Source: Zunongwangia mangrovi
Lineage (GTDB): Bacteria; Bacteroidota; Bacteroidia; Flavobacteriales; Flavobacteriaceae
Assembly: GCF_900112105.1 (NCBI RefSeq)
Contig: NZ_FOKV01000008.1
Span: 1 to 64,000 of the forward strand
DNA: 64,000 bases
Direction: 5' to 3'
Shown here: piece by piece, positions 4,843-30,458 of the stretch
Layout: the number at the start of each line of letters is the position of its first letter
Numbering within the stretch: position 1 is the first letter of the stretch
The notes under the pieces: generated by a model
What the model was told of the DNA's origin: nothing
The model's database searches: none
What the model saw: the letters and a program-made list of their open reading frames with translations, nothing else
Made by a program: the position numbers and the translations under genes

Positions 4843-5126
4843 TTTCAGGCTTATTTAGAGTAAACTTCTGTTATGTTGAATTCATCTCGAGTGGTGGGAT
4901 AAATTCAAACCTTAATTTACTCAATTTTTAACGAATTTCATTCAATTATAATTTATGATTTTATTGATTTCTGCAATTTTTTCTGTTTAAATTAAATGTG
5001 GCGTATAAGTACATTTTAGGCTTAATTGTTAGCTTTTATGGTACTTTGCTGTGAAAATCAAATTAATGTTAATCTGTTAAAATTTCATATTAAATTAAAT
5101 GATTTGACAATTAATTGTTCTTTTAT

Positions 5127-5157
5127 TTGATAATACGATATTAATAAATTATACTTG
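5127..5157 (+). promoter_or_regulatory. Predicted promoter P1 of the pectin enzyme operon
   Basis: TTG at 5127-5129 and TATACTTG at 5150-5157 are 20 bases apart, close to the Bacteroidota pattern TTG-N19-TAnnTTTG. The block TTTGATAAT, 18 bases, ACTTGTAGTC recurs at exactly the same spacing before the susC gene (15471-15506), which argues that both are real and co-regulated. Confidence 0.65.
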
Positions 5158-5307
5158 TAGTCTAAGAAACTATTAGAGTATATGTGATATTTAAATTTTC
5201 ATCACTAAAATGAATATTTACGAAATCGTTATCGTTCTGGGTTTTAATCAAAATTTCAAAAGATATAATATTTTGAAAGGGATTGAACTTATGTATTTAT
5301 CTAAAAA

Positions 5308-5321
5308 TGTAATCGATTGCA
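5308..5321. promoter_or_regulatory. Predicted operator 1 of the pectin locus
   Basis: TGTAATCGATTGCA is palindromic except for one base pair (12 of 14 positions symmetric, centre ATCGAT). An identical 14-mer lies at 15590-15603 before susC. Size and symmetry suit a LacI-family regulator, but no such regulator gene is in the window. It is 28 bases before the GH105 start and well downstream of P1. Confidence 0.6.
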
Positions 5322-5349
5322 TTATTTAAAAAGTAAGTAAGATTTAAAA

Positions 5350-6594
5350 ATGAATACTATCGAATTTCAAAAATACAGAAGCTTCCTGTTCATTATTATC
5401 CTGGCTGTTGTTTCAGTTGGTTGTAAAAACAAGGAAGAAAAGGAAACAGTTACTGTTTCAACGGAGTCTGAAATGAAAATTTCAGATTCCCTGAAATGGT
5501 CTGAACGTATGTTACTTTCAGAAATAGCACGTTTTCCAGATCCTACACTTTTAGACTTTAGGGAAAAACCAAAATGGAATTATACCAATGGTTTGATTCT
5601 TACCGCTACACAGCGAGTTCATGAAGAGATAAATAAGCAGGCGTATTTCAATTATATCTACGAGTTTGGAGATAAAATGGTAAATGAAAATGGAGAAATA
5701 AAAACCTACACGCAGCAAGATTATAAATTAGATGTTCTTAAACCAGGCGATGCTTTACTTTATCTCTATTCAAAAACTAAAGAGAAACGATTTTTAAAAG
5801 CGTTACAAACTTTAAGAACTCAGATTACCGACCAACCCAGAACTTCAGATGGTGGCTTTTGGCATAAAAAAGTTTATGAACATCAAATGTGGTTAGACGG
5901 TCTTTATATGGCACAGCCTTTCTATGCTCATTATACAAAAATGTTTGGTGAAGGAGAAGAGACTGAAGCTTATAACGAGATTGTAAAACAATTCGCGCTT
6001 ATTCAAAAGCACACATTAGATGAAAAGACAGGTTTGCTTTATCATGGTTGGGACGAGAAAAAGCAACAGGATTGGGCAGATACCAATACCGGGACTTCTG
6101 CCAATTTCTGGTCTAGAGCGATGGGATGGTACGGGATGGCATTGGTAGATGTGCTTGATTATTTACCTGAAGACCATCCCGGCAGAAAGGACATGATTAC
6201 TTACTTAAATCAATTTGTAAAAGCTGTAGCTAAAGTTCAGGATAAAGATACAGGTTTGTGGTATCAGGTTTTGGATAAAGGAGATTTAGAAGGAAATTAC
6301 CTTGAAGCAACTGGCTCAGCTATGTTTGTTTATGTGATGGCCAAAGGTGTAAATCAGGGTTATCTACCTAAAGAGTATAGAACAATTGCTGAAAAAGGTT
6401 TTCAGGGACTTTTAGATCATCTAGTTGAAGTTGAACCAAACGGAATGGTAAATCTTAAAAAATGCTGTGCTGTTGCCGGTTTGGGAGGTGATCGTGATGG
6501 TTCTTTTGAATATTATATTAACGAAGAAGTTAGGGCCAACGATCCTAAAGGAACAGGTCCATTTATAATGGCAAGTTTAGAATTAAATAAATAA
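5350..6594 (+). CDS. GH105 unsaturated rhamnogalacturonyl/galacturonyl hydrolase, lipoprotein
   Basis: GH105 enzymes hydrate the 4,5-unsaturated uronic acid left at the non-reducing end by pectate or rhamnogalacturonan lyases and so release it. The (alpha/alpha)6-barrel family is recognised from QMWLDGLYMAQPF (likely catalytic Asp183), the NTGTSANFWSRAMGWYGMAL block and the C-terminal GTGPFIMASLEL. The N-terminus ends in a lipobox (AVVSVGC), so the protein is membrane-anchored, probably periplasmic. At 414 residues it has the usual length. It is the first gene of a tight operon (the GH43 gene follows after 4 bases), preceded by promoter P1 and the shared operator. Its products would come from the two PL1 lyases of the second block. 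Confidence 0.92.
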   Translation: MNTIEFQKYRSFLFIIILAVVSVGCKNKEEKETVTVSTESEMKISDSLKWSERMLLSEIARFPDPTLLDFREKPKWNYTNGLILTATQRVHEEINKQAYFNYIYEFGDKMVNENGEIKTYTQQDYKLDVLKPGDALLYLYSKTKEKRFLKALQTLRTQITDQPRTSDGGFWHKKVYEHQMWLDGLYMAQPFYAHYTKMFGEGEETEAYNEIVKQFALIQKHTLDEKTGLLYHGWDEKKQQDWADTNTGTSANFWSRAMGWYGMALVDVLDYLPEDHPGRKDMITYLNQFVKAVAKVQDKDTGLWYQVLDKGDLEGNYLEATGSAMFVYVMAKGVNQGYLPKEYRTIAEKGFQGLLDHLVEVEPNGMVNLKKCCAVAGLGGDRDGSFEYYINEEVRANDPKGTGPFIMASLELNK

Positions 6595-6598
6595 AGCA

Positions 6599-8227
6599 AT
6601 GCGAAAAATTACATTTATAGCTTTACTACTATTAACTGGTTTTGCAAAAGCACAGGATTCAGAAAATTATAAATCTGAAGTTTGGGTAGCAGATCAGGGA
6701 GACGGAACCTATAAAAATCCAATAATACATTCAGATTATTCAGATCCAGATGTTACCAGGGCTGGTGATGATTATTATATGACTTCCTCTAGCTTTAATG
6801 CCGCACCAGGTTTGCCAATTTTAAATTCAAAAGATATGGTGAACTGGGAGCTTATCAATTATGCACTCCCAAAGCAGGTTCCAGTAGAACATTTTAATAC
6901 TCCACAGCACGGAAATGGCGTATGGGCACCGGCTTTTCGCTATCACAATAACGAATTCTACATCTATTGGGGTGATCCAGATTTTGGAATTTATATGGTG
7001 AAAACAGACGATCCTGCCGGAGAATGGTCAGATCCTGTTTTAGTAATGGAAGCAAAAGGCGCTATAGATCCTTGTCCGTTATGGGACGAAGATGGGAAAG
7101 CTTATCTAGTCCACGCCTGGGCAGGAAGCCGTGCTGGTGTAAAAAGTCTTCTTACCGTACACAAAATGAGTCCAGATGGGACAAAAGTTTTGGACGACGG
7201 AAGACATGTTTTTGATGGACACGACGATCATCCAACAGTAGAAGGATCCAAATTCTATAAAAGAAACGGCTATTATTACATTTTTGCTCCTGCCGGTGGT
7301 GTTTCAACAGGATGGCAGCTTATTCTACGTTCTAAAAATGTTTATGGGCCTTATGAAGAAAAGATTGTTTTAGAACAGGGAAGCACTTCAGTAAATGGTC
7401 CTCATCAGGGCGCTTGGGTAGAAACTCCAAAAGGTCAGGATTGGTTTTATCATTTTCAGGATGTCGATGCGTATGGAAGAATTGTTCATTTACAGCCAAT
7501 GGATTGGAAAAACGACTGGCCGGTAATGGGAGAAGATCATGATGGTAACGGCATAGGAGAACCGGTACTGACTCATAAAAAACCAGATGTAGGCCAAAGT
7601 TATCCCGTGGTAACACCAAAAGAAACAGATGAGTTTACCAGTGATAGCCTGGGAATCCAATGGCAGTGGAATGCCAATCCAAATGTGCTATGGCATGCTA
7701 AATTACCGGGTAATGATTACCTAAGGTTGTTTAGTATATCACAACCTGAAGAAGCTAAAAATCTTTGGGATGTGCCTAATTTATTATTGCAGAAATTTCC
7801 GGCGCCTTCTTTTACAGCAAGTTCAAAAATCACTTTAATTCCTGAAGATGCCGATAAACCAAGAAAAGCCGGGTTTATCGTAATGGGAAGAGATTATGCT
7901 ACGCTTACAATCGTTGAAAAAGATGGAGAATTTTATCTGCAACGAACTGAAGCTATTAATGCCGACCAGGGAAAAGAGGAAAAAGTTATAGAGGAAGTAA
8001 AACTGAAATCGAATACGGTGTATGTAAAAGTAGAAGTTTCGGCTCCGGATGCGATGTGCCAATTTAGTTTTAGTGAAAACGGAAGGCGTTTTAAAGAGAT
8101 AGGCGAGCCTTTTAAAGCAAGGGTAGGAAAATGGATTGGAGCAAAGCTTGGCTTATTTAGTGTTAGTCCGGCCGATGCGAAACGAGGAGGTTATGCAGAT
8201 GTCGAATATTTCAGGATCACAAAATAG
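6599..8227 (+). CDS. GH43 beta-xylosidase / alpha-L-arabinofuranosidase-type enzyme, exported
   Basis: A five-bladed propeller glycosidase acting on xylose or arabinofuranose decorations. The signal peptide ends at FAKAQ. The first blade carries HSDYSDPDVTRAGDDYYM (general base Asp49), followed by VWAPAFRYHNNEFYIYWGD, GAIDPCPLWDEDGKAYLVHAW and PTVEGSKFYKRNGYYY with the likely proton donor Glu215. After about residue 340 a concanavalin-like C-terminal domain (W-x-W-x-x-NPN to the end) matches the usual GH43 C-terminal domain. Within a pectin locus, xylogalacturonan xylose or rhamnogalacturonan-I arabinan are the natural targets. Substrate cannot be settled by eye. It is 4 bases after GH105 and 6 before CE12. 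Confidence 0.9.
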   Translation: MRKITFIALLLLTGFAKAQDSENYKSEVWVADQGDGTYKNPIIHSDYSDPDVTRAGDDYYMTSSSFNAAPGLPILNSKDMVNWELINYALPKQVPVEHFNTPQHGNGVWAPAFRYHNNEFYIYWGDPDFGIYMVKTDDPAGEWSDPVLVMEAKGAIDPCPLWDEDGKAYLVHAWAGSRAGVKSLLTVHKMSPDGTKVLDDGRHVFDGHDDHPTVEGSKFYKRNGYYYIFAPAGGVSTGWQLILRSKNVYGPYEEKIVLEQGSTSVNGPHQGAWVETPKGQDWFYHFQDVDAYGRIVHLQPMDWKNDWPVMGEDHDGNGIGEPVLTHKKPDVGQSYPVVTPKETDEFTSDSLGIQWQWNANPNVLWHAKLPGNDYLRLFSISQPEEAKNLWDVPNLLLQKFPAPSFTASSKITLIPEDADKPRKAGFIVMGRDYATLTIVEKDGEFYLQRTEAINADQGKEEKVIEEVKLKSNTVYVKVEVSAPDAMCQFSFSENGRRFKEIGEPFKARVGKWIGAKLGLFSVSPADAKRGGYADVEYFRITK

Positions 8228-8233
8228 ATTGCA

Positions 8234-9082
8234 ATGATGAAATTCGATAAAATCATACTTGTTTTTTTATGGAGTCTTTGTCTTGTATCCTGTGGTTCAA
8301 AAGAAGAAAAAACTAATAAGCAGGAACAATCTGAACCTGAATCACCCATAACGATTTATTTGATAGGAGATTCTACAATGGCCGATTATAGTGGAGATTA
8401 CGATGATAAAGATTATATGAAAACAAGATATCCTGTTATGGGCTGGGGACAGGTTTTTCAGCAATTCTTTATTAAGGATAGTTTACCTAAGCTAAGCGGA
8501 ATTATTAAAACAAATTCTGTAATCGTAGATGATCGCGCCAGAGGAGGTCGTTCTACCCGAACCTTTTTTCAGGAAGGAAGATGGCGAGCAGTTTATAAAG
8601 ATCTAAAAGAAAATGATATCGTTATTATGCAATTTGGGCATAATGATGGTTCTGAAAGTCATCCAGATCGTTATGTGAATATAGAAGGTTACAAAGAATT
8701 TTTAAGATTGTTTGTTAGCCAAACGTTTCAAAAAAATGCGCAGCCAATCATTTTAACTCCGGTTGCGAGAAATTATCCCTGGAAAGATGGTCATCTGGAA
8801 AATGTTCATGGAGAATATGACCAGGCTCCAAAAGATATAGCCCAGGAAATGGACGTTCCATTAATAGATCTGAATAAAATGTCTATGGACTTTTTTTCAG
8901 AAAAAGGAGAAGAATATGTTTCTGAAAATTACTTTATGAATTTACCGGCTGGTAAATATGAAGCCTATCCCGAGGGGCAAAATGATAATACACACTTTCA
9001 GCCGGAAGGAGCTAAAGCTGTCGCACAATTGGTTTTTAAGGGTTTAAAAGATTTATCCGATAGGTCAACTTCAGAAAAATAG
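8234..9082 (+). CDS. CE12 rhamnogalacturonan acetylesterase-type SGNH hydrolase, lipoprotein
   Basis: This family removes O-acetyl groups from pectin so that lyases and hydrolases can act. The SGNH blocks are all present: IGDSTMADY (nucleophile Ser47), RARGGRSTRTF (oxyanion Gly), QFGHNDGS (Asn) and NDNTHFQPEGA (Asp251 and His254). These arrangements match CE12 rather than general GDSL lipases. The N-terminus is a lipoprotein signal (SLCLVSCGS) followed by a charged linker. The 282-residue length is normal. The start ATGATG at 8234 leaves two adjacent starts; either gives the same mature protein. It sits 6 bases after GH43 in the operon. Confidence 0.88.
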   Translation: MMKFDKIILVFLWSLCLVSCGSKEEKTNKQEQSEPESPITIYLIGDSTMADYSGDYDDKDYMKTRYPVMGWGQVFQQFFIKDSLPKLSGIIKTNSVIVDDRARGGRSTRTFFQEGRWRAVYKDLKENDIVIMQFGHNDGSESHPDRYVNIEGYKEFLRLFVSQTFQKNAQPIILTPVARNYPWKDGHLENVHGEYDQAPKDIAQEMDVPLIDLNKMSMDFFSEKGEEYVSENYFMNLPAGKYEAYPEGQNDNTHFQPEGAKAVAQLVFKGLKDLSDRSTSEK

Positions 9083-9087
9083 CTTCA

Positions 9088-10983
9088 ATGAAAAATTATG
9101 TACTGACTTTTATTTTCTTTTTAATAGGGTTTACTTCAGTAAAAGCCCAAAAGGAAAAGCTGAATTTAAAGCCTTATTCGATTGAAACTACCTACGATCA
9201 TTTAAAAAAATATCATCCGTTTGTAACGCCTATTCAGGAGTTGTCTTCAGAAGATATTGAGTCTAAAAGGGAAGTTGTTTACAAAGAGACTTCAACTTCA
9301 GCATTAAAATTAGACGTTTTTTATCCAAAAAACTCTACCGGTGAAAAATACCCGGGAGTTTTGCTTATTCATGGTGGAGGATGGTTTTCAGGAATAAAAG
9401 AAAATCAGGCTGTAATGGCACAACATCTGGCAGAAGCGGGATATGTTGCGGTTGCGGCATCTTATCGATTGGGAGAGGAGGCTAAATATCCCGCAGCAAT
9501 TCTAGATTTAAAAGATGCCATTCGATGGATGAGAGAACACGCAGCCGAATTTAACCTGGATACTGAAAGACTAGCGACTTTGGGTGCATCTGCCGGAGCT
9601 CATTTGGCAATGCAGTTAGGAGTAACACCAGATTCAGAAGTTTATAATGAAGAAAATGAAGATTTTTCAACTAAAGTTCAGGCGATCGTAAATATAGACG
9701 GAGTTGCCTCTTTAGCACATCCCGAAGCTGAAAAAGGAGCTTTATTAGATGCCTGGTTGGGAGAAACTTTTAAGGATGATCCCGCACTTTGGAGAGAAGC
9801 TTCACCCTTGGAATATGTAGATACTACAAGTCCGCCAACTATTTTTATTAATAGTGCGCAACCAAGATTTCATGCCGGGCGAGATAGTTTTGTAGCACTT
9901 TTGGATACATATGGAATTTATAATGAGATTCATACAATCCCAAATTCTCCCCATTCATTTTGGTTGTTGCATCCCTGGTTTGAAGAAACTCTTAAGTACA
10001 CCTTAGATTTTTTAGATAAAAATCTGAAAGATAAGTATGCAGAACCTTACCGAAAAATAACAGTCGCTCAGGATGGAACTGGTGATTTTAAAAGCATTCA
10101 GGAAGCGGTAAATTCAGTTCGAGTTTTTGGTCCAGGCGAAGTACTTATCAAAATAAGCAACGGAGTTTATAAGGAGAAATTGGTGATTCCGGCGCATATA
10201 TCTAAACTCACTTTTGAAGGAGAAAGCAGGGAAAAAACGATGATACTTAATGATGATTATGCCAGTAAAATGAATCCCAAAACAGGCGAAGAATTCGGAA
10301 CATTTTCATCGTATACCGTATTGGTGAGAGGAGCCGATGTTCATTTTAAAAATCTAAGTATTAAAAACTCTTCCTGTAACCAGGGGCAGGCGGTTGCTTT
10401 GCATGTTGAAGGTGATCGTTTTGTAGCTCAAAATTGTAATATTTTGGGTTGCCAGGATACTTTGTATACAGCAACAGAGGGAGCGAGAGAATATTTTCAG
10501 GATTGTTATATCGAAGGTACGACCGACTTTATTTTTGGACAGGCCACGGTAGTTTTCAATTCATGTGAGATTAAAAGCCTGGCAGATTCGTACATCACGG
10601 CAGCTGCTACACCCAGAAACCAGGATTTTGGATATGTTTTTTACGATTGCAAACTAACTGCCAGTGATGATGTAAAGAAAGTTTTTCTGGGACGTCCCTG
10701 GCGTTCTTACGCGAAAACAGTTTTTATAGATACCCAAATGCAAGATCATATTACTGAAGAAGGATGGCATGCCTGGCCGGGAGATGATATGTTTCCGCAT
10801 AAAGAAAAAACCACTTTTTATGCTGAATTTAATAGTAGCGGCCCAGGAGCTTCGAAGGAAACTCGCGTGGATTGGTCGCATCAATTAGCTAAAAGGCAGG
10901 TTGAAAAGTATACGTATAAAAACATTTTTAGAGGTTGGATTCCATTGATGGGAAAACAGCTTAAAAAACTTTATAAAGAATAA
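9088..10983 (+). CDS. Bifunctional alpha/beta-hydrolase esterase and CE8 pectin methylesterase
   Basis: Two catalytic domains in one exported chain of 631 residues, with a signal peptide ending SVKAQ. Residues about 60-310 form an alpha/beta-hydrolase esterase with the oxyanion motif LLIHGGGWFSG, nucleophile elbow LGASAGAH (Ser168) and HSFWLLHPW near the catalytic His. Residues about 325-631 are a CE8 beta-helix pectinesterase: DGTGDFKSIQEAV, GQAVALHVEGDR, GCQDTLY (Asp457), EGTTDFIFGQ (Asp480) and LGRPWRSY. CE8 hydrolyses the methyl ester of homogalacturonan, releasing methanol; the esterase half is probably an acetyl esterase. Fusing both would strip acetyl and methyl groups together. The GH28 gene starts one base after the stop. 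Confidence 0.9.
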   Translation: MKNYVLTFIFFLIGFTSVKAQKEKLNLKPYSIETTYDHLKKYHPFVTPIQELSSEDIESKREVVYKETSTSALKLDVFYPKNSTGEKYPGVLLIHGGGWFSGIKENQAVMAQHLAEAGYVAVAASYRLGEEAKYPAAILDLKDAIRWMREHAAEFNLDTERLATLGASAGAHLAMQLGVTPDSEVYNEENEDFSTKVQAIVNIDGVASLAHPEAEKGALLDAWLGETFKDDPALWREASPLEYVDTTSPPTIFINSAQPRFHAGRDSFVALLDTYGIYNEIHTIPNSPHSFWLLHPWFEETLKYTLDFLDKNLKDKYAEPYRKITVAQDGTGDFKSIQEAVNSVRVFGPGEVLIKISNGVYKEKLVIPAHISKLTFEGESREKTMILNDDYASKMNPKTGEEFGTFSSYTVLVRGADVHFKNLSIKNSSCNQGQAVALHVEGDRFVAQNCNILGCQDTLYTATEGAREYFQDCYIEGTTDFIFGQATVVFNSCEIKSLADSYITAAATPRNQDFGYVFYDCKLTASDDVKKVFLGRPWRSYAKTVFIDTQMQDHITEEGWHAWPGDDMFPHKEKTTFYAEFNSSGPGASKETRVDWSHQLAKRQVEKYTYKNIFRGWIPLMGKQLKKLYKE

Positions 10984-10984
10984 T

Positions 10985-12643
10985 ATGAGAAATAAAGTCT
11001 TAGGTATTATTTCTATTTTTTTACTGAATTTATCTTTTGCATTCGCCCAGATCGATAACCAGGTTGAAGAAGAAATTTATGAAGGAGTTAATTTTCCCAT
11101 GAAGCATTGGGACACTCCTAACATTAAAAATCAGGATTTTCTAATAACCGATTTTGGAGGTTTAGGAGACGGAATTTTTAAAAACACTGTAGCATTTAAA
11201 CAAGCCATTTCCCAAGCTACAGAAGTTGGAGGTGGTAAAATCATTGTGCCAAGAGGAATTTGGTTAACAGGCCCAATTGAGTTAAAAAGCGGAATAAATC
11301 TTCATCTTGAAGCTGGAGCCGTTTTGTTATTCAGTAGAGATTTTGACGATTATCCTTTAATCGAAACCAGTTACGAAGGTTTAAATTCAGCACGATCTAC
11401 ATCGCCAATATTTGCTAATAATGCTGAAAATATAGCCATTACCGGTAGTGGTGTGATCGACGGAAATGGCCAGGCCTGGCGACCGGTTAAAAAATCTAAA
11501 ATGACCGATCATCAATGGCGAGATTTGATAAAATCAGGCGGAGTTTTATCTGAAAATAAATCGGTTTGGTATCCTTCAAAATCAGCTTTAAAAGGAAGCG
11601 AGTCAGATTTAAGCAGCTTTTCTTTAGAGGAACTTAAAGAAGTAAAAGCCTTTTTACGCCCCGTAATGGTAAGTCTTGTAAACTGTAAGAATATTTTGCT
11701 GGACGGCCCTACATTTCAAAATTCACCGGCATGGAATATTCATCCTTTAATGAGCGAAAATATTATTATTAGAAACCTTAATATTAGGAATCCATGGTAT
11801 GCGCAAAATGGCGATGGTCTAGATATCGAATCCTGTAAAAATGTGCTGGTTTATAATAATACCTTTGATGTTGGTGACGATGCGATTTGTGTAAAATCTG
11901 GGAAAGATAAAGATGGTCGTGATCGCGGTATCCCTACACAAAATGTGATTATAAAAAATAATACGGTTTATCATGGGCATGGCGGATTTGTGATTGGTAG
12001 TGAAATGTCTGGTGGTGTTAAAAATGTACATATTTCAGATTGTAATTTTATAGGAACCGATACCGGTTTGCGTTTTAAAAGTACTCGTGGCCGTGGTGGC
12101 GTGGTCGAGGATATTTATATTTCTAATATCAATATGACGGGAATTGCCACAGATGCCATACGTTTTAATTTATATTATGGCGGAAAGGCTCCAGATCTCT
12201 CAGATCTTACCAATATTAAGGAGGACGAGGATGATTATCCTGAAGTTTCTATAGAAACACCAGCTTTTAAGAATATTTATATGGATAATATTCAGGTTAT
12301 CGAAGCTGAATCTGCCGGATATTTTATGGGACTTCCTGAAATGAACCTGGAAAATATAAAGCTTGAAAATTCTAAAATTCAGGCTAAAAAAGGAATGCGA
12401 ATTATTAATGCAGACGGGATAACTTTTAACTCGGCTAAACTGATTACTGAAGAAATTCCAATTAAAATACATAATGTTAAAAATGTTGATTTTAGCGAGT
12501 TGTTTTTTGAATCTGATTTTGAAAAACCTATTCAAATTTCAGGATCAAAAACAGCTAAAATTGAGCTCAATTTTAATGAAGCTGGCAAAAGCTTCGACTT
12601 ACAGGAAGGCCTTCAGGAATCTCAGATCATAAAAATAAATTAA
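10985..12643 (+). CDS. GH28 polygalacturonase family enzyme, exported
   Basis: GH28 beta-helix enzymes hydrolyse alpha-1,4-galacturonan or rhamnogalacturonan with inversion. The four family motifs are present: QNGDGLDIES (NTD-like, catalytic Asp), VGDDAICVKSG (paired Asp), VYHGHGGFVIGSE (the His motif) and GLRFKSTRGRGG (the RIK-like substrate-binding motif). The signal peptide ends FAFAQ. The GSGVIDGNGQAWRP entry strand and long loops near residues 170-220 are typical of bacterial exo-acting members, and I would guess an exo-polygalacturonase. At 552 residues the length is within range. The next gene begins two bases after its stop, so the pair is certainly co-transcribed. Confidence 0.92.
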   Translation: MRNKVLGIISIFLLNLSFAFAQIDNQVEEEIYEGVNFPMKHWDTPNIKNQDFLITDFGGLGDGIFKNTVAFKQAISQATEVGGGKIIVPRGIWLTGPIELKSGINLHLEAGAVLLFSRDFDDYPLIETSYEGLNSARSTSPIFANNAENIAITGSGVIDGNGQAWRPVKKSKMTDHQWRDLIKSGGVLSENKSVWYPSKSALKGSESDLSSFSLEELKEVKAFLRPVMVSLVNCKNILLDGPTFQNSPAWNIHPLMSENIIIRNLNIRNPWYAQNGDGLDIESCKNVLVYNNTFDVGDDAICVKSGKDKDGRDRGIPTQNVIIKNNTVYHGHGGFVIGSEMSGGVKNVHISDCNFIGTDTGLRFKSTRGRGGVVEDIYISNINMTGIATDAIRFNLYYGGKAPDLSDLTNIKEDEDDYPEVSIETPAFKNIYMDNIQVIEAESAGYFMGLPEMNLENIKLENSKIQAKKGMRIINADGITFNSAKLITEEIPIKIHNVKNVDFSELFFESDFEKPIQISGSKTAKIELNFNEAGKSFDLQEGLQESQIIKIN

Positions 12644-12644
12644 G

Positions 12645-15251
12645 ATGCTTAAAAAAGTAACCTACATTTTGCTGTTTGTACCATCGCTGATTTTTGCACA
12701 GTACCCTTTTCAGGATTCAAATTTATCTACTGAAGATAGAGTGGAAGATTTAATAGGACGATTAAGTACAGACGAAAAGATCGATCAATTAATGAACGAT
12801 GCTCCTGCAATAGAACGATTGGGAATCCCTAAGTACAACTGGTGGAATGAAAGTTTACACGGAGTGGCACGCGCTGGATACGCCACGGTTTTCCCGCAAT
12901 CGATAAGTATTGCTGCCTCCTGGAATAGAGATTTGGTTTATGATGTAGCCACTGCTATCTCTGATGAAGCAAGGGCAAAATACCACGAATATCAGCGAAG
13001 AGATCAGCATGATATTTATCAGGGATTAACCATGTGGTCTCCAAACATTAATATTTTTAGAGATCCAAGATGGGGAAGAGGTCACGAAACTTATGGCGAA
13101 GATCCTTTTCTTACTGGCCAGTTGGGGATGAATTATGTAAAAGGTCTACAAGGAGATAATGACAAATATTTCAAAGTAGTGGCCACAGCAAAACATTATG
13201 CCGTGCATAGCGGTCCTGAAGTTTCCAGGCATGTGTTTGATGCAAATCCTAGTCAGCGAGATTTATGGGAAACCTATTTGCCGGCATTTAGAACTTTGGT
13301 GAAAGAAGGCAATGTTCAATCGGTAATGACAGCCTATAACCGAATTTGGGGAGAACCGGCCAGTTCTAATACCTATCTATTTAAAGTTTTACGGGATTAT
13401 TGGGGGTTTGATGGTTACGTAGTTTCAGATTGTGGGGCAATAAATGATATTTGGGAAGATCATAAAGCCAGTAAAAATGCAACTACAGCTTCAGCATTAG
13501 CATTAGAAAAAGGAACCGATCTAAATTGTGGCGATACCTATAAAGCTTTAAAGCAGGCCGTAAAAGAAGAGGAAATTTCCGAAGAAAAAATCGATATCGC
13601 ATTAAGAAGGTTATTCACTGCACGTTTCAAATTAGGAATGTTTGATAATAATACCGAAGTGCCTTACGCACAGATTCCTTATGCTCAGGTAAATAATTCA
13701 ACTCACCAGGCACTCGCCAGAAAAGCGGCAAGAGAAAGTGTGGTTTTATTAAAAAATGAGAATCAAATATTACCAATTTCAAAAGATATTAATAGGGTGG
13801 CTGTTATTGGACCAAACGCCGATAATGTTCAGTCGCTGTGGGGAAATTATAACGGAACGCCTAAAAATGCGGTGACCATTTTACAAGGGATCAAAAATAA
13901 ATTATCTCCTGAAGTTGAGATTCTTTACGAAGAAGGCACACCAATTGCCAGTGAAATCCCCAGTATGTCTACGATCCCTTCCATTTACTTTGAAAATAGT
14001 GAAGGGAAGCAGGGTTTAGATGCCTTTTATTACGATAATAAAGATTGGGAAGGAGAAGCATTGTTTTCAAGAATCGATGATAATATCGATTTTATTTGGG
14101 ATATCAATCCGCCCGATCCTCGTTTAGCATTGCAAAATTATAGCGTGAAATGGGAAGGTTTTATAAAAGTTCCTGACAGCGGAACTTATTACTTTAGCGA
14201 TTGGGGAAAACCTTATTTAGATTTTAAAATAGGCGACACGATTGGAGGCGGAAAACATAAACATCATCCATCCTTGAACCCAAAAGAAATAAAACTTCAA
14301 GCTGGAAAAAAGTATCCTATCACAGTAAGATATAGCAATTTATATGGAAATGCTGAAGCAAGTATGAAATGGAGCAGACCAAACAGCAGTTCTAAAGCCA
14401 ATGCCATTAAAATAGCTGAGCAATCTGATATTGTAGTATTAGCTTTAGGTTTAAATGAACGTCTTGAAGGTGAAGAAATGAGCGTTGAGGTTGAAGGTTT
14501 TTCCCGCGGAGATCGTACAAGCTTAGATTTGCCAAAAAATCAGGTGGATTTAATGAAAGCTATTGTGGCAACAGGTAAACCCGTAGTTCTGGTGTTAATT
14601 AACGGTAGTGCTTTATCTATTAATTATGCTAAAGAAAATATAGGCGGAATCCTAACTGCAGGATATCCCGGGGAGCAAGGAGGTAACGCTGTTGCCGATG
14701 TTTTATTTGGTGATTATAATCCGGCTGGCAGATTACCAGTAACCTATTATAAATCTACCGATCAATTACCAGATTTTGAAGATTATGATATGGAGGGCAG
14801 AACTTACAGATATTTTGAAGATGAACCTTTATACAATTTCGGACATGGTTTAAGCTATACTCGCTTTAAATATTCAGATCTTAAAATAACCAATATTGAT
14901 ATACAGAAGGAACTAACTTTTTCAGTAAAGGTTACGAACACGGGAGATTATAATGGTGACGAGGTGCTTCAGTTATATTTTAAAGATGAAAAAGCAAGTA
15001 CGCCAAGACCAATAGTTCAGTTGGCAGCTTTTAAACGTATTCATCTTAAAAAAGGAGAAAGTAAAGAGGTGAATCTAAGTGTGAACCCAAGACAATTGGC
15101 GATGATCAATGCTAACGATGAATTGGTAATAGAACCAGGCTGGTTTAGTATCTACGTTGGAGGAAAATTACCCGAAATTGGAAAAAATTTAGATGAATTT
15201 TTAAAGGATCGATTTAGGATTAAAGGAAAGGAGGTTAACTTTGATTATTGA
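12645..15251 (+). CDS. GH3 beta-glycosidase with inserted PA14 domain, exported
   Basis: An exo-acting retaining beta-glycosidase, probably beta-xylosidase or beta-glucosidase. Order of domains: signal peptide ending LIFAQ; GH3 barrel with NWWNESLHGVAR and nucleophile Asp262 in YVVSDCGAINDI; first part of the alpha/beta sandwich; a PA14 domain at about residues 455-575 (GLDAFYYDN, WEGFIKVPDSGTYYF); remainder of the sandwich with LGLNERLEGEEM, probably carrying the acid/base Glu; and a C-terminal fibronectin-like domain. PA14 insertions at this place are known in GH3 and narrow the active site. Xylose on xylogalacturonan would fit with the GH43 in this operon. It is the last gene before a 366-base gap. 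Confidence 0.9.
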   Translation: MLKKVTYILLFVPSLIFAQYPFQDSNLSTEDRVEDLIGRLSTDEKIDQLMNDAPAIERLGIPKYNWWNESLHGVARAGYATVFPQSISIAASWNRDLVYDVATAISDEARAKYHEYQRRDQHDIYQGLTMWSPNINIFRDPRWGRGHETYGEDPFLTGQLGMNYVKGLQGDNDKYFKVVATAKHYAVHSGPEVSRHVFDANPSQRDLWETYLPAFRTLVKEGNVQSVMTAYNRIWGEPASSNTYLFKVLRDYWGFDGYVVSDCGAINDIWEDHKASKNATTASALALEKGTDLNCGDTYKALKQAVKEEEISEEKIDIALRRLFTARFKLGMFDNNTEVPYAQIPYAQVNNSTHQALARKAARESVVLLKNENQILPISKDINRVAVIGPNADNVQSLWGNYNGTPKNAVTILQGIKNKLSPEVEILYEEGTPIASEIPSMSTIPSIYFENSEGKQGLDAFYYDNKDWEGEALFSRIDDNIDFIWDINPPDPRLALQNYSVKWEGFIKVPDSGTYYFSDWGKPYLDFKIGDTIGGGKHKHHPSLNPKEIKLQAGKKYPITVRYSNLYGNAEASMKWSRPNSSSKANAIKIAEQSDIVVLALGLNERLEGEEMSVEVEGFSRGDRTSLDLPKNQVDLMKAIVATGKPVVLVLINGSALSINYAKENIGGILTAGYPGEQGGNAVADVLFGDYNPAGRLPVTYYKSTDQLPDFEDYDMEGRTYRYFEDEPLYNFGHGLSYTRFKYSDLKITNIDIQKELTFSVKVTNTGDYNGDEVLQLYFKDEKASTPRPIVQLAAFKRIHLKKGESKEVNLSVNPRQLAMINANDELVIEPGWFSIYVGGKLPEIGKNLDEFLKDRFRIKGKEVNFDY

Positions 15252-15471
15252 TCAATAATTCATCTTGATTTTTCTTGAACATAGTTATTAAATGGGATAC
15301 AGAGGAAGATGAAATTTACCCCATAAGGTGAGAATACTCTAAATTTTAAATAATTAGGAACAAGGTTGATATCCAGACCTTAATTTGTAGCTAAAACGTA
15401 TATCTATATTTATTAAATTATTAGTGTGTAATCTACATTTAAATTAATTTGATAAAATTTAAGCTTATTAT

Positions 15472-15502
15472 TTGATAATTAACTATCTATTGTGTAAACT
15501 TG
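15472..15502 (+). promoter_or_regulatory. Predicted promoter P2 driving susCD of the pectin locus
   Basis: TTG (15472-15474), 20 bases, TAAACTTG (15495-15502). Flanking bases TATTTGATAAT and CTTGTAGTC are identical to those of P1, with the same spacing. The expected transcript start is just after 15506, giving a leader of about 110 bases. Confidence 0.65.
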
Positions 15503-15589
15503 TAGTCGAATTAACTATCCTATAACAATTTAAGCGAAAACGATATAGTTTGAACTATAAAAGGAATCAGAAAAAATTTTAAACTAATG

Positions 15590-15603
15590 TGTAATCGATT
15601 GCA
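15590..15603. promoter_or_regulatory. Predicted operator 2 of the pectin locus
   Basis: TGTAATCGATTGCA, identical over all 14 bases to the site at 5308-5321. It ends 14 bases before the susC ATG and lies about 85 bases downstream of the P2 -7 box. The position suggests a roadblock-type or post-initiation control, or a second promoter that I do not recognise. Confidence 0.6.
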
Positions 15604-15617
15604 AAAAGAATTTACTT

Positions 15618-18600
15618 ATGAAATACAACTACCATAAGATGAAAAATTCCTATCTGAAATTTGCAAAATTGAGACCTGAAAAAAAGGGTGTTTTAAGTTT
15701 TGTAATTTTTATTTTATTTGCTTTTACTGGCTATTCTCAGGAAATTACGGGAACAGTAAAAGATGTTAAGACCGGCGAGCCTTTAATGGGTGTTAGTGTT
15801 TTAGAAAAGGGCACTCAAAATGGTGCGGTAACAGATTTTGATGGTAACTATAGTATTACTGTTTCCAGTACAGATGCGATATTGGTATTTTCTTATATAG
15901 GTTTTAAAACACTAGAGCGCTCTTTAGATGGAGCAACTACTTTAGATGTTTCTATGGAAGAAGATTTAAACCAACTCGGGGAAGTGGTTATTGTAGATTA
16001 CGGTTATGGAAACGTAAAGAAAGAAGATATGACGGGTTCTGTAGCAACAATGTCTAGCGAGGAGTTTGCTAAAATTCCCGTTTCTAGCGCCGCAGAGGCG
16101 TTGGCAGGTAGACTTCCCGGGGTAAACGTGCAAACTGCAGATGGTGAGCCCGGCGCTGCAATTAATATTAGAGTTCGTGGTGGTGGATCTATTACCCAGG
16201 ATAACTCTCCATTATACGTGGTAGATGGATTTATCGTTGGTGGAATAAACGATATACCACCTAACGATATCGAAACGATAAACGTATTAAAGGATGCCGC
16301 AGCAACTGCTATTTATGGGGCACAGGCTGCCAATGGAGTAGTTGTGGTTACTACAAAAAGTCCTGTAGTGGGAAGGGTTTCTATAGATTATAATAACTTC
16401 TTTCAATTTAATTATCTGCCTAAAGATAGAAAGTATGAAGTTTTATCTCCTTACGAATACGTTTTCGCTAATTACGAATATGCCAAATTAAGGTCTGAAG
16501 CAGATGTGAGAAATTACGAAAGATATTTTGGTGTTTACGATGATATAGATCTTTATCGCTCGATGAATGGGACCGACTGGCAGGACGAATTATTTGGTGA
16601 TGCGAAGGTTTCCCAATTTCATAATTTAACAGTAAGTGGAGGTACTCAGGAGACAAAAGTACGTCTAAGCGTTAGTAATAATAATGATGAAGGATTACTT
16701 TTAGGATCAGGATACGAAAGGACTGCGATTAACTTTAAATTAAATCAGCAATTAGTTGAAGATAAATTAGACCTGGATGTATCAGCACGTATCACTGATA
16801 CCGAAACTGATGGTGCCGGAACCTCTAGAAATGCACAAATAGGAATTAAAGAAGCGGTACAAACACGTCCTGTAAATGGATTAGCAGACGAGTTGGATAT
16901 CGATCTTAATCAGCTAGGATCTGATAATGATTTTCAACAGTTTTTACTAAGTCTTATAAGTCCGGTTGAATTATCAGAACAGGATTGGAGAAAAAGAACA
17001 GAAAACGATTATGTTTTAAACGCTGCGTTAAATTGGAATATTCTTGATAATCTTAGCTTTAAAACTACTTATACAAGATCTAAGGATTACAGAGAAGAAT
17101 TACGCTTCTACGGTCCTTTAACTGGAGAGTCTTTTAATAACGGAGGTAGCTTGCCTTTGGGATATAAAGATAATCGAGAAAGTTATTCATACAGATGGTT
17201 AAATACATTGAATTTTAAATACAATGAATTAGAAAACCATAGTTTCGATTTACTTTTAGGTCACGAGGTTTATTCTAGTGGAGGAGACCAGTCATTCATT
17301 AGAGCTGAAGATTTTAGACTTTCCATCACTCCAGAAGAACTTTTTGCTAATATGGCCTTTGGTAGAGTAGATAATCAATATACAAGAGAGTTTACAGAGA
17401 GTAACAGGCTTTCTTTCTTTGGTAGGTTAGATTATCAGTTTATGGGTAAATATTTAGCGACTGTTACGGTAAGAGCAGATGAATCCAGTAAATTTTCAAA
17501 AGAAAATCGCGTAGGAGTATTTCCTGCAGTAGCGTTGGCCTGGAAGATCGATAAAGAAGAATGGTTACAGGATTCTGAAGCGATTAATTCATTAAAATTG
17601 AGACTTAGTTACGGGCAAACCGGTAATGACAGAATTGATAATACAGCTACTCAGTTTTTATTTAGTGCGACAACCAATCGAGGTCCTGGTTTTGGAAATA
17701 TGGATAATGTATATTACACTCCAAGTAGCGATGTATTATATAATCCAGATCTGGTTTGGGAAACTACTATAAATAGAAACTTAGGTTTAGATTTCGGACT
17801 TTTTGGAAACAGGGTAAATGGTAGTTTAGATGTGTATTATAATACTACTAAAGATCTGTTACTTAGATCTGCAATCCCTAACAATACAGGATTCTCAGAG
17901 CAATGGAATAATATAGGTAGCACATCTAATCGCGGGGTAGAATTAGGCTTTAATGCCTATATCGTGGAGAATGAAAACTTCAACTTTTCAACAACATTCA
18001 ACTTTGGGTTAAACAGAGCTAAGATTGAAGAGTTAGATGGTACAGATGAACGCTTTTTTAGATCGAATTGGGCAAGTACAGATCTAAATAATATTAACGA
18101 TTATTATCTAAAATTGGGTGGAACTATTGGAGATATCTACGGTTATGTTACTGACGGTTATTATACTGTAGATGATTTTGAAAGCTACGACGAGGTTGCC
18201 GAGGAATACATCTTAAGAGAGGGAGTGCCGGCTTCTGGTGCTGTGGTAGGAAATTCAGATATCCGCCCTGGTTTCCTTAAACTGAAAGATATAAATGGTG
18301 ATGGAGTAATCAATGCAGATGATCGTCAAGTGATAGGAAACACATTACCCAAGTTTCAGGGAGGTTTAGGATTCAACGCGAGTTGGAAAGGCTTTGATGC
18401 TTCGATCTTCTTTAACTTTCAGTATGGAAACGATGTTTACAACACAGGGAAAATTCAATTTAACCAGTTTCGTCGTGTAACTTATGGTAACTTATTGCAA
18501 ACTATGAGTACAGATAATCGTTACACCTATATAGATGCAAGTGGAGATATAACCGGTACACCGGGTGAAATCGTTACAGATTTAGATCAATTGGCAGCGA

Positions 18601-18923
18601 TGAACGAAGATAAAAATATCTGGTCTCATGCAAGTCATGGTATTGCAGGTGCAGTAGTGCACTCCTGGGCGATAGAAGATGGATCTTTTGTAAGATTAAA
18701 CAACTTAACTTTTGGTTACAGCCTTCCAAAGGATTTGATCTCTAAAGTAGGGATGGATCAGTTTAGAATATATGCGAGTGGAAGAAACCTGCATATTTGG
18801 ACCAATTACTCAGGTTACGATCCTGAAGTTAGTACATCTGGAAACAATTTAACTCCTGGGGTAGATTACTCTTCTTTTCCAAGAAGCAGGTCATACACAC
18901 TAGGACTTAATTTAACTTTCTAA
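15618..18923 (+). CDS. SusC/RagA-type TonB-dependent outer-membrane transporter (pectin locus)
   Basis: Imports oligosaccharides captured by the partner SusD, powered by TonB. The 1101-residue chain has an N-terminal signal (FVIFILFAFTGYSQ), a carboxypeptidase-regulatory-like beta-sandwich (about 42-115: GTVKDVKTGEPLMGVSV, VTDFDGNYSI), a plug (about 120-230: AGRLPGVNVQTADGEPGA, IYGAQAANGVVVVTTKS) and a beta barrel ending in NLTF. It has no STN domain, so it does not signal to a FecR, in contrast to the SusC at 38051. A second ATG eight codons downstream (MKNSYLKF) is an equally good start. susD follows 10 bases later. Operator 2 and P2 sit directly upstream. Confidence 0.95.
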   Translation: MKYNYHKMKNSYLKFAKLRPEKKGVLSFVIFILFAFTGYSQEITGTVKDVKTGEPLMGVSVLEKGTQNGAVTDFDGNYSITVSSTDAILVFSYIGFKTLERSLDGATTLDVSMEEDLNQLGEVVIVDYGYGNVKKEDMTGSVATMSSEEFAKIPVSSAAEALAGRLPGVNVQTADGEPGAAINIRVRGGGSITQDNSPLYVVDGFIVGGINDIPPNDIETINVLKDAAATAIYGAQAANGVVVVTTKSPVVGRVSIDYNNFFQFNYLPKDRKYEVLSPYEYVFANYEYAKLRSEADVRNYERYFGVYDDIDLYRSMNGTDWQDELFGDAKVSQFHNLTVSGGTQETKVRLSVSNNNDEGLLLGSGYERTAINFKLNQQLVEDKLDLDVSARITDTETDGAGTSRNAQIGIKEAVQTRPVNGLADELDIDLNQLGSDNDFQQFLLSLISPVELSEQDWRKRTENDYVLNAALNWNILDNLSFKTTYTRSKDYREELRFYGPLTGESFNNGGSLPLGYKDNRESYSYRWLNTLNFKYNELENHSFDLLLGHEVYSSGGDQSFIRAEDFRLSITPEELFANMAFGRVDNQYTREFTESNRLSFFGRLDYQFMGKYLATVTVRADESSKFSKENRVGVFPAVALAWKIDKEEWLQDSEAINSLKLRLSYGQTGNDRIDNTATQFLFSATTNRGPGFGNMDNVYYTPSSDVLYNPDLVWETTINRNLGLDFGLFGNRVNGSLDVYYNTTKDLLLRSAIPNNTGFSEQWNNIGSTSNRGVELGFNAYIVENENFNFSTTFNFGLNRAKIEELDGTDERFFRSNWASTDLNNINDYYLKLGGTIGDIYGYVTDGYYTVDDFESYDEVAEEYILREGVPASGAVVGNSDIRPGFLKLKDINGDGVINADDRQVIGNTLPKFQGGLGFNASWKGFDASIFFNFQYGNDVYNTGKIQFNQFRRVTYGNLLQTMSTDNRYTYIDASGDITGTPGEIVTDLDQLAAMNEDKNIWSHASHGIAGAVVHSWAIEDGSFVRLNNLTFGYSLPKDLISKVGMDQFRIYASGRNLHIWTNYSGYDPEVSTSGNNLTPGVDYSSFPRSRSYTLGLNLTF

Positions 18924-18933
18924 AAACTTAACT

Positions 18934-20742
18934 ATGAAAAATAGAATTTTATATATCATATTTTTAGGGATCCTGGCGACTTCCTGTTCAGATGATTTTA
19001 TGGAGCCGGTGTCAAGATCTACCTTTGATAACCAATATATTTATTCGAATGTAGATGATGCCAGAAATGGTGTAAATGCTGTTTACTCTTATTTTAATCA
19101 GGATGCTTTTAGATCTCGATTATCGAATAATATGACGGGAAACACAGATATAGAACATGCCTCTGGTTGGACGAGTGAAGGTGATCGATATCAAATTTGG
19201 GATCTAGATGCTTTACCAAGTAACAGGGATCTGGATATCGTATGGACCTATGCGTATAGAGCAATTAGAGATGCTAATATTTCTATAGAAAGTATTCAGG
19301 CTAGTGGTTCTTTAGAATCACAAGATCCAAACGAGCAGGCCGATTTTTATCAATTATTAGGTGAAGCTTATACTTTAAGGGCGTATTGGTACAGCATGCT
19401 TATCTTTTATTTTGGAGATGTACCGTATGTAACATCTGCGCCTGTTGCTGGAGATGATTTTAACTTACCTAAAACAGATAGAAATGAAATCCTTTCAGGA
19501 GTGATTCAGGATCTAATTGATATCGAGCCTTATATGAAATGGGCAGACGAGCTGCCTTACGGAATCGAGCAGGTAAACCGCGAATATACCTTAGGAATGA
19601 TCGCAAGATTATCTTTGCAAAGAGGTGGTTATTTCTTAACACCAGATCTAAGCATGGATAGAGAAGGAGATTACCTGGATTACTATCAAATCGCAAAAGA
19701 TTATACTCAAAAGTTGATAGAGCTTAAGGATAGACCTTTACCAACAGATTTTAGACAGGTTTTTATGAATCAGGCAAAGTTTATCTCACCTGTAAATAGT
19801 GATATATTATTTGAAGTTCCATTTTCTTTAAATAGTGGTGATGTAGCCTGGAATATTGGGATGACGGTTATGGGAGGCCCAACAGCAGCTCACGATTATG
19901 GATCCGGGAATAACTATATGGCAATTCCTCCAACCTATTATTTTTCTTTCGATACGTTAGATATTAGAAGGGATGTAACCTGCGGTTTATATCAGATAAA
20001 TCAACAATTTGAGAAAGAATTTGTGAACTCGCCATCCAATATCTCTCAGGGTAAATGGAGCCGACACTTTTTGGATAATCCACCAGGAGCCTCTTCAGCA
20101 AAAGGTACAGGGATAAACTGGCCAATGCTTAGATATTCCGATGTTTTATTGATGTATGCCGAAGCCGAAAATGAATTAAATGGCCCAACAGCTTCAGCAC
20201 AGGAAGCATTAGCAAGAGTAAGACAACGTGCTTTTGAAGATACTTTCTGGCCAGAAAAGGTAGATCAATACATTAGTTCTATTTCTGGGTCTAAAGAAAG
20301 CTTTTTTGAAGCTATTGTAGATGAGAGAGCCTGGGAGTTTGGTGGTGAAATGATTAGAAAGTACGAATTAATTCGATGGGGCATTTATGCTGAAAAAACT
20401 CAGGAAACAGTAAATGAGTTAAAAGATCTGGCTGATGCTGCATTTGCAGGTACTACAAACCTACCAATTTATATGTACTGGAGAACAGATGAAAGTGGTG
20501 ATTTTGAGATCTTAAATCCTAACCGAAAAGTAGTTGCTCCGCCAGATGATACCTGGAATCAGGTTCCGTTTTTACTAAGTCTGCATAGTGACGAAACTCA
20601 ATATCAGGAATGGATTCTTTACGATTGGGAAAACTACTACAATGGGCCAAATCCAGGTGTGGCAAGATATATATTCCCAATACCAACAATTGCTATCGAG
20701 AACAGTCAGGGAACTTTAAAAAATGATGGTTATGGTTTTTAA
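18934..20742 (+). CDS. SusD/RagB-type surface glycan-binding lipoprotein (pectin locus)
   Basis: Forms the lid of the SusC transporter and binds glycan at the cell surface. The lipobox is ILATSCSDDF; the acidic residues right after the Cys suit the surface export signal of Bacteroidota lipoproteins. TPR-like helices with LLGEAYTLRAYWYSMLIFYF and the C-terminal MLRYSDVLLMYAEAENEL and RVRQRAF blocks are classical SusD. At 602 residues it is slightly long. The next gene begins inside its last codons (20 bases of overlap), which indicates coupled translation. Confidence 0.95.
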   Translation: MKNRILYIIFLGILATSCSDDFMEPVSRSTFDNQYIYSNVDDARNGVNAVYSYFNQDAFRSRLSNNMTGNTDIEHASGWTSEGDRYQIWDLDALPSNRDLDIVWTYAYRAIRDANISIESIQASGSLESQDPNEQADFYQLLGEAYTLRAYWYSMLIFYFGDVPYVTSAPVAGDDFNLPKTDRNEILSGVIQDLIDIEPYMKWADELPYGIEQVNREYTLGMIARLSLQRGGYFLTPDLSMDREGDYLDYYQIAKDYTQKLIELKDRPLPTDFRQVFMNQAKFISPVNSDILFEVPFSLNSGDVAWNIGMTVMGGPTAAHDYGSGNNYMAIPPTYYFSFDTLDIRRDVTCGLYQINQQFEKEFVNSPSNISQGKWSRHFLDNPPGASSAKGTGINWPMLRYSDVLLMYAEAENELNGPTASAQEALARVRQRAFEDTFWPEKVDQYISSISGSKESFFEAIVDERAWEFGGEMIRKYELIRWGIYAEKTQETVNELKDLADAAFAGTTNLPIYMYWRTDESGDFEILNPNRKVVAPPDDTWNQVPFLLSLHSDETQYQEWILYDWENYYNGPNPGVARYIFPIPTIAIENSQGTLKNDGYGF

Positions 20743-29790: not shown

Positions 29791-30417
29791 TTAGCTTAAA
29801 GCTTCTTTTAATTCTTTTGCAGCAGCTGCTGGATCTTCAGCTCCGTAGATCGCTCCACCAGCTACAGCCACAACAGCTCCAGATTCTTTTACTTTTGCGA
29901 TGCTGTTTTTGTTTACACCACCAGCGATAGAAACAGGAACACCTGCTCTAGATGCTTCTTCGATCAATACGTCGATAGAGTATCCTGGTTTTGCCTGCTC
30001 ATCTAAACCTGCATGTAATTCTACAAATTCTACACCTAGTTTAGAAACTTCCTGAGCTCGCTTTACACGATCTTGTACACCAATAGTATCTACAACTACC
30101 GCTCTGTCATATTTTTTAGCAGCTTCTACAGCACCAATAATTGTTGCATCGTCGATAGATCCTAAGATTGTAATGTAATCTGCTCCTGCTTTAAAAGCCA
30201 TTTCTGCCTCTAATCCACCTGCATCTGCAGTTTTAAAGTCAGCAAAAACTTTTTTATCAGGAAAAGCTTCTTTCATTGCAGTGATCGCGCTAAGTCCTTC
30301 ACTTTTAATAAGCGGAGTTCCTAACTCAATAATATCGATATAAGGAGCTACTTTGGTAGCTAGAGCTATTGCGTCTTCTGTGTTTAGTAGGTCGATTGCT
30401 ACTTGTAATTTAGTCAT
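29791..30417 (-). CDS. hps: 3-hexulose-6-phosphate synthase
   Basis: Condenses formaldehyde with ribulose-5-phosphate to 3-hexulose-6-phosphate, the entry reaction of the ribulose monophosphate pathway; run backwards it makes ribulose-5-phosphate. The 208-residue TIM barrel has LQVAIDLLNTEDAI, IIELGTPLIKSEG, the orotidine-decarboxylase-superfamily motif DxKxxD (Asp60, Lys62, Asp65 in FADFKTADAGG), and VSIAGGVNKNSI with AVAGGAIYGAEDP for phosphate binding. Family length is exact. The adjacent isomerase removes doubt between this and the related ulosonate decarboxylases. It is the second gene of a two-gene minus-strand operon with a clean terminator. Confidence 0.92.
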   Translation of the reverse strand: MTKLQVAIDLLNTEDAIALATKVAPYIDIIELGTPLIKSEGLSAITAMKEAFPDKKVFADFKTADAGGLEAEMAFKAGADYITILGSIDDATIIGAVEAAKKYDRAVVVDTIGVQDRVKRAQEVSKLGVEFVELHAGLDEQAKPGYSIDVLIEEASRAGVPVSIAGGVNKNSIAKVKESGAVVAVAGGAIYGAEDPAAAAKELKEALS

Positions 30418-30458
30418 AATCCTCTATGTTTAATTTATATTCTTCTGTTTATTAATTT

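Follow-up and report, generated by a model that had tools for sequence, protein, structure and literature searches.

A putative LacI-type operator before both blocks of a pectin locus in Zunongwangia mangrovi and its candidate regulator at a distant hexuronate cluster

In Flavobacteriaceae it is difficult to assign polysaccharide loci that have no regulator of their own, and the pectin locus of Zunongwangia mangrovi raises the question of which regulator, if any is shared, governs its two blocks of genes. The locus lies in the 64,000-nucleotide stretch analysed here (the window, C9:1-64000; contig C9 starts at window base 1, and upstream DNA is outside view). We annotated ten of its proteins by profile scans (Pfam, NCBIfam), susC being left out and named by eye, and list them with two short sites that precede the blocks.

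5308-5321, forward strand: putative LacI-type operator 1, TGTAATCGATTGCA, 28 bp before the GH105/88 gene, at about +147 to +160 from the predicted start
5350-6594, forward strand: GH88/GH105-family hydrolase, first gene of block 1 (PF07470, 2.6e-119)
6599-8227, forward strand: GH43 with a beta-xylosidase C-terminal domain (PF04616, PF17851)
8234-9082, forward strand: GDSL esterase, which we take to be CE12-like (profile scan)
9088-10983, forward strand: esterase-pectinesterase fusion (PF20434, PF01095)
10985-12643, forward strand: GH28 polygalacturonase-like protein (profile scan)
12645-15251, forward strand: GH3, closing block 1 (NCBIfam best match: Xyl3A, a xylan 1,4-beta-xylosidase, at 979 bits, under the cut-off of 1250)
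15590-15603, forward strand: putative LacI-type operator 2, TGTAATCGATTGCA, 14 bp before susC, at about +84 to +97 from the predicted start
15618-18923, forward strand: SusC-like TonB-dependent transporter, first gene of block 2 (named by eye)
18934-20742, forward strand: SusD-like protein (PF07980)
20723-22414, forward strand: DUF4957/fn3 protein (profile scan)
22471-23907, forward strand: pectate-lyase-like protein (matches the PelZ model below its cut-off; Pfam gives nothing at 1e-6)
23924-26146, forward strand: pectate-lyase-like/pectinesterase fusion, last gene of block 2 (profile scan)

The GH43 and the Xyl3A-like GH3 of block 1 would fit a xylose-bearing pectin. That the locus contains no regulator, as the first-pass annotation had stated, held when the open reading frames of at least 120 aa in window positions 1-32000 were read by eye: none resembled a hybrid two-component system (HTCS) protein, and the nearest regulator gene is AraC-like and 5 kb downstream. 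An hxlA/hxlB-like pair (29791-31043, ribulose monophosphate pathway) and this divergent AraC-like gene, ending at 32075, lie 3-5 kb after the pectin locus (by eye).

The same annotation had described two identical 14-base near-palindromes, one before each block. A pattern search of the window places TGTAATCGATTGCA exactly at 5308-5321 and 15590-15603, 28 bases from the ATG of the GH105/88 gene and 14 bases from that of susC, and its other strand reads as itself with two mismatches around a central CG. No third exact copy exists in the window, in line with the first-pass reading by eye; at up to two mismatches there is one further place, 39400-39413, inside a susC-like ORF. The five strand-matches obtained at that level compare with a shuffle mean of 0.75 (largest 4), and 0/100 shuffles reached five.

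Distribution of the site and its link to a LacI-family protein

Rather than recurring at many unrelated or coding places, the exact 14-mer occurs four times in the genome searched (4.13 Mb, 32 contigs), each copy being intergenic and before pectin or hexuronate genes. Besides the window pair, one copy (C17:318898, L025:9899) separates a GH28 gene from a divergently oriented LacI-family gene (L025:10109-11131), and another (C22:1942) lies 116 bp before kduI. Beyond the LacI-family gene follow uxaA, uxaB, TRAP genes, kdgA, kdgK and uxaC, and genes for pectin enzymes lie on the opposite side. Names of genes beyond the window locus were read from translations by eye. The end of C17 and the start of C22 both fall inside uxaC, with overlapping sequences (by eye), and these two copies probably belong to one locus split by the assembly. 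With up to two mismatches allowed, 43 strand-matches at 35 places were obtained (places counted by hand), versus 22 for the reversed pattern. Among the 24 of these places that were fetched, 17 fell inside ORFs (the two one-mismatch copies, in rhaA-like and uxuA-like genes, and 15 two-mismatch ones), and three two-mismatch matches were intergenic. The clear signal resides in the exact copies: the reversed-pattern control for TGYAATCGATTRCA without mismatch gave 13 matches in 299 genomes of the family, about 0.04 per genome, so four exact copies in one genome are far above chance.

A further sequence of this kind, GGTAATCGATTACA, is found inside uxaB (L025:13072, C17:322071), and Z. atlantica, Z. 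pacifica and two Mesonia loci have a one-mismatch site at the corresponding position; either an operator within the gene or conservation of the coding sequence could account for it.

The LacI-family protein encoded on C17, termed P0001 here (PF00356 at C17:319123-319260, 49.2 bits, cut-off 27), is 99% identical to a LacI protein of Z. atlantica 22II14-10F7, and its nearest solved relative is CcpA (1rzr, 1.1e-51). Its gene thus sits beside the uxa/TRAP/kdg genes and a second set of pectin enzymes, on a contig other than the window's and with a copy of the motif in its divergent promoter region, which bears out the expectation of an external LacI-family regulator encoded near uronate catabolism genes. 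We drew 299 Flavobacteriaceae genomes and took as P0001 orthologues all proteins at E <= 1e-115 (at least 55% identity), a cut-off chosen after the list was seen. Exact TGYAATCGATTRCA was present in 37 of the 42 orthologue genomes (114 sites, 2.7 per genome; five genomes without an exact copy) compared to 12 of the 257 others (12 sites), an association with a Fisher p of about 2e-31, which is uncorrected for shared ancestry among genomes that are not independent. The 12 sites in genomes without a close orthologue correspond to background, the reversed control giving 13 sites in all 299. At a looser cut-off of 1e-80 the motif was found in 38/88 versus 11/211 genomes (counted by hand). At up to one mismatch, the site lay within 900 bp upstream of 51 of 59 distinct orthologues (36 exact; control 0/59), a set that includes the gene of P0001 itself and one gene with under 200 bp of upstream DNA, while only 4 of 20 genes below 45% identity to P0001 had a site within 900 bp, one of them exact. 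All 18 relatives hand-picked from 53 loci carried 2-8 exact copies per genome, versus a control of 0 in all 18. By co-occurrence, then, the site tracks P0001 across Flavobacteriaceae.

P0001 is one of six LacI proteins in the genome, and the LacI gene on C22 adjoins a uronate-type TRAP operon, which makes it conceivable that another family member, for example this one beside the second TRAP/kdgA-like cluster, binds the sites. We consider this very unlikely: TGYAATCGATTRCA at up to two mismatches is absent from the stretch around the C22 gene (L041) and from three others (L036, L102, L104), with a single two-mismatch match in a fourth (L103), whereas an exact copy lies in P0001's own promoter region and the site follows its orthologues. 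Moreover, the recognition helix [ST]AATVSRALN is identical in all orthologue rows of at least 55% identity and differs in the five paralogues. The second LacI gene lies with a second TRAP and kdgA-like set (L041:3278-7755, C22) on a contig with xylose genes, perhaps a glucuronate branch.

Homologous pectin loci, to which the first-pass annotation had looked for conservation, retain the site. SusC homologues at E <= 1e-200 numbered 28 genes in 25 of the 299 genomes, the window's included, and the 800 bp upstream held the site at up to one mismatch in 23 of them and exactly in 16. Running 300 shuffled half-sites on the same upstream regions gave a mean of 0.06 and 0 exact matches; one shuffle, TGCAATY, which is almost the motif itself, reached 13/28 at up to one mismatch. 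No site at up to one mismatch was found within 800 bp of the other five homologues (L107, L112, L111, L113 and L130). An HTCS-like gene lies directly upstream of the L107 susC and another near the L112 susC, and one locus (L173) has both an HTCS-like gene and a one-mismatch site. The presence of HTCS-like genes at these two operator-less loci suggests an exchange between LacI and HTCS regulators. One such pectin locus (L155, genome G245) lacks the operator and has an HTCS-like gene (6866-11239) directly before susC.

In Z. atlantica a 550 kb contig carries the two operators, at 309 and 324 kb, and the LacI gene is on another contig, which puts the gene at least about 225 kb away from them. An extra susC/susD pair stands there between the block 1 operator and GH105 (L151:5534-10229). 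A counterpart is absent from the corresponding window positions 5322-5349, the best matches in the window being about 30%, and the operator therefore directly precedes GH105 in the window. The GH105 gene starts with ATG in the window and apparently with TTG in Z. atlantica.

Promoter geometry and a second shared element

Flavobacterial promoters are described, in the excerpt of PMC9723704 used here, by TAnnTTTG at -12 to -5. The features upstream of the two blocks, with -7 boxes predicted by means of this consensus, are the following.

5126-5129, forward strand: predicted -33 box TTTG of the block 1 promoter, spacing 20, conserved in Z. atlantica
5150-5157, forward strand: predicted -7 box TATACTTG of block 1, 5/6 match to TAnnTTTG
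5158-5172, forward strand: core TAGT-N7-ACTA of a second element, directly after the -7 box of block 1 (longer element 5153-5172, common to xylB/xylE promoters)
15471-15474, forward strand: predicted -33 box TTTG of the block 2 promoter
15495-15502, forward strand: predicted -7 box TAAACTTG of block 2, 5/6 match to TAnnTTTG
15503-15517, forward strand: second-element core, immediately following the -7 box of block 2 (longer element 15498-15517)

We compared 87 distinct exact sites (97 before near-identical ones were merged) from loci fetched via regulator, susC, motif and neighbouring stretches; the few contexts fetched via the second element were each also obtained by another route. A -7 box (match of at least 5/6) abuts the operator in 65/87 contexts, including the GH28 and kduI copies of the same genome, which abut a 5/6 box. 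Counted by offset, 67 flanks had the box at 0, versus 3.5 on average and at most 6 at offsets 1-19, and among contexts with an abutting box TTTG lay 19 bp upstream in 25 and 20 bp upstream in 5. The usual operator should accordingly cover about -4 to +10, as for a repressor of initiation. An abutting box is absent in the other 22 contexts, among them both window sites and their two Z. atlantica counterparts, so one can be less sure of what the window sites do than of the effect of the sites in relatives. In all four Zunongwangia promoters, TATACTTG/TAAACTTG is the sole box that has a perfect TTTG 17-22 bp upstream of it; its end lies 87-88 bp (block 2), 150 bp (window block 1) or 249 bp (Z. 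atlantica block 1) from the operator. Weaker boxes occur at 5179-5186, with CTTG at 21 bp, and in Z. atlantica block 1, where TATGTTTA lies 10 bp before the operator with no -33 box. The promoter arrangement at the window sites is thus unusual, and TAGT-N7-ACTA occupies there the place where the LacI operator usually sits. The first-pass annotation had both transcripts under one external regulator; an external LacI-type regulator is supported, while the second shared, xylose/xylan-linked element and the atypical operator position had been missed, and other control probably exists besides P0001.

The longer form of the second element, ACTTGTAGTCNAANNAACTA, has six matches in the genome at up to two mismatches (control 0). 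Two are in the window promoters; the others lie upstream of a gene pair for xylulokinase and xylose isomerase, upstream of a sugar transporter gene termed xylE, between a GH43-like gene and an HTCS-like one, and upstream of an HTCS-like gene located after GH10-like genes (names by eye). Across 18 relatives, 13 matches at up to one mismatch, a level run with no control, precede xylE-like (6), xylB-like (3) and susC-like (3) genes and an HTCS-like gene after GH10 (1); two of the three susC-like matches are the Z. atlantica pectin blocks. Among the matches in relatives, these 13 alone stand in a clear gene context: at up to two mismatches the 18 relatives gave no overall excess (32 matches vs 38 for the control), and the two Zunongwangia gave 12 vs 5. 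All five exact matches of a shorter form, TWNACTTGTAGTC, fall in these promoters, and with one mismatch it stayed below its control (30 vs 82). The company the element keeps makes a second, pentose-linked input at the window promoters likely.

Bacteroides XylR is of NrtR type (excerpt of PMC3878776) and the genome contains four NrtR genes, so an NrtR-family XylR is a candidate for the second element. Its reading as an NrtR-type repressor site is nevertheless weak, because the palindrome ANTAGTN7ACTANNAG gave 8 matches vs 6 for the control (three of the 8 at places outside the examined set), TAGT-N7-ACTA alone is also present at unrelated places, and TAGT-N5-9-ACTA was absent from the scanned gaps beside the four NrtR genes, none of which was seen beside xylAB.

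Since the second element is found in both promoters at the predicted start, and the homologous loci of G245 and G127 have no operator and an HTCS-like gene close by, the 14-mer might be the leftover of a promoter duplication, with real control exerted by the second element alone through a pentose regulator or HTCS. This, too, seems highly improbable: in block 1 the operator is identical in Z. atlantica, in contrast to the diverged stretch that separates it from the second element, and the operator is kept before distant susC homologues that lack the second element at up to three mismatches. The nearest DNA-binding regulator gene, 5 kb downstream of the locus, encodes an AraC-like protein (31233-32075, family assigned by eye), which is most unlikely to be the regulator, its gene being divergent to the hxlA/hxlB-like genes (by eye), the window search giving no motif copies near it, and a palindrome with a central CG being a LacI-type rather than a typical AraC-type site.

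A third stretch shared by the two upstream regions and lying between the second element and the operator, CGAAAWCGWTATMGT (5221-5235, 15535-15549), was dropped with 57/72 matches on the two strands vs 130/113 for the control. On C11 (283386-283406, L242:1387), a palindrome resembling the second element, AATAGTACTTTTGACTATAAG, precedes a sugar transporter gene near galK/galT-like genes (by eye) and lies about 4.8 kb from the C11 NrtR-family gene.

Proposed mechanism and comparison with known systems

The sites, their distribution, the regulator link and the conserved promoter geometry are read directly from the DNA; from these we infer that P0001 binds the sites and represses, what kind of effector releases it, that a roadblock forms and what the second input may be. 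The two 14-mers are very probably operators of P0001, which would act as one LacI-family repressor of pectin and hexuronate catabolism. Without pectin breakdown products, a P0001 dimer would occupy the sites; a pectin product (galacturonate, KDG or a relative) would release it, and hexuronate catabolism, the second pectin cluster, kduI and both blocks of the window locus would be switched on jointly. In most relatives the operator at about -4 to +10 would block initiation. In the window the best-formed promoters are about 84 and 147 bases upstream of it, and there a bound repressor would most likely form an elongation roadblock, and the second, xylose-linked element would cover the start.

A more specific version is a two-key lock, in which a pentose-responsive repressor on the start site and a hexuronate-responsive LacI repressor blocking elongation 84-147 bases downstream would allow full expression of both blocks only upon joint release of galacturonate and xylose, for instance from xylogalacturonan. 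Block 1 encodes two putative beta-xylosidases. We regard this version as rather doubtful, the results on the second element having lowered its standing slightly. On pectin, Gramella flava raised its uxa/kdg genes and did not raise its pectin susC-susD (excerpt of PMC5306329), so the targets need not all respond alike.

LacI regulators of Bacteroides hexuronate use and LacI-type genes in Gramella pectin loci are already in print, at least in the excerpts considered. KdgR, UxaR and UxuR (BT0487, BT0824, BT1434) are LacI-family regulators of Bacteroides said to form one branch (excerpts of PMC4052901, PMC3878776), and P0001 resembles them in family, in hexuronate/KDG catabolism and in belonging to Bacteroidetes, a likeness of family and pathway. 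Sites before kdu, uxa or kdg genes, the mark of a hexuronate regulator, are present here before kduI (116 bp) and in the GH28-lacI gap beside uxaA-uxaC. The KdgR regulon is described as holding a limited number of periplasmic or extracellular proteins, and the rhamnogalacturonan (pectin) loci of B. thetaiotaomicron are assigned to HTCS (excerpt of PMC3878776), whereas here the putative operator of a hexuronate regulator precedes pectin susC. The pectin loci of Gramella echinicola and G. flava contain a LacI/'exuR' gene (excerpts of PMC4891872, PMC5306329), similar to the LacI-type gene in the pectin/hexuronate locus here, and G. echinicola DSM 19838 has both an orthologue (75%, L056) and the operator. 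The excerpted Gramella papers name the gene and describe no operator; in Z. mangrovi the regulator would, in addition, act in trans on a distant locus. A limited search of the literature on LacI regulators and operators of flavobacterial polysaccharide loci found no description of this site, and a full-text search (supplements outside its scope) for the operator sequence in four versions and the second element in one returned only a staphylococcal CcpA paper. For pectin use in Flavobacteriaceae the analysis offers candidates for the operator, its regulator and the list of targets, and suggests that a cytoplasmic sugar-acid sensor may govern unlinked pectin loci and that homologous loci may swap LacI and HTCS control.

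The CcpA-cre system of Firmicutes uses the same operator type: the cre consensus WTGNAANCGNWNNCWW agrees with the motif, and an S. aureus cre site contains TGTAATCGATTACA (excerpt of PMC9598941). Unlike CcpA, P0001 scores 188.1 bits against a ccpA model cut-off of 442.35, and the targets found belong to one pathway and are not global. The arabinan locus of B. thetaiotaomicron is under dual control by an arabinan-answering activator and the repressor AraR, which answers arabinose (excerpt of PMC5061871), and is similar in that a polysaccharide locus answers two signals, one via a monosaccharide repressor. It differs in that here one promoter seems to bear two sugar-type operators as its inputs, and the LacI site is placed far beyond the predicted start on the downstream side. 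The Z. mangrovi locus offers a case, open to experimental test, in which two sugar signals would converge on a single promoter.
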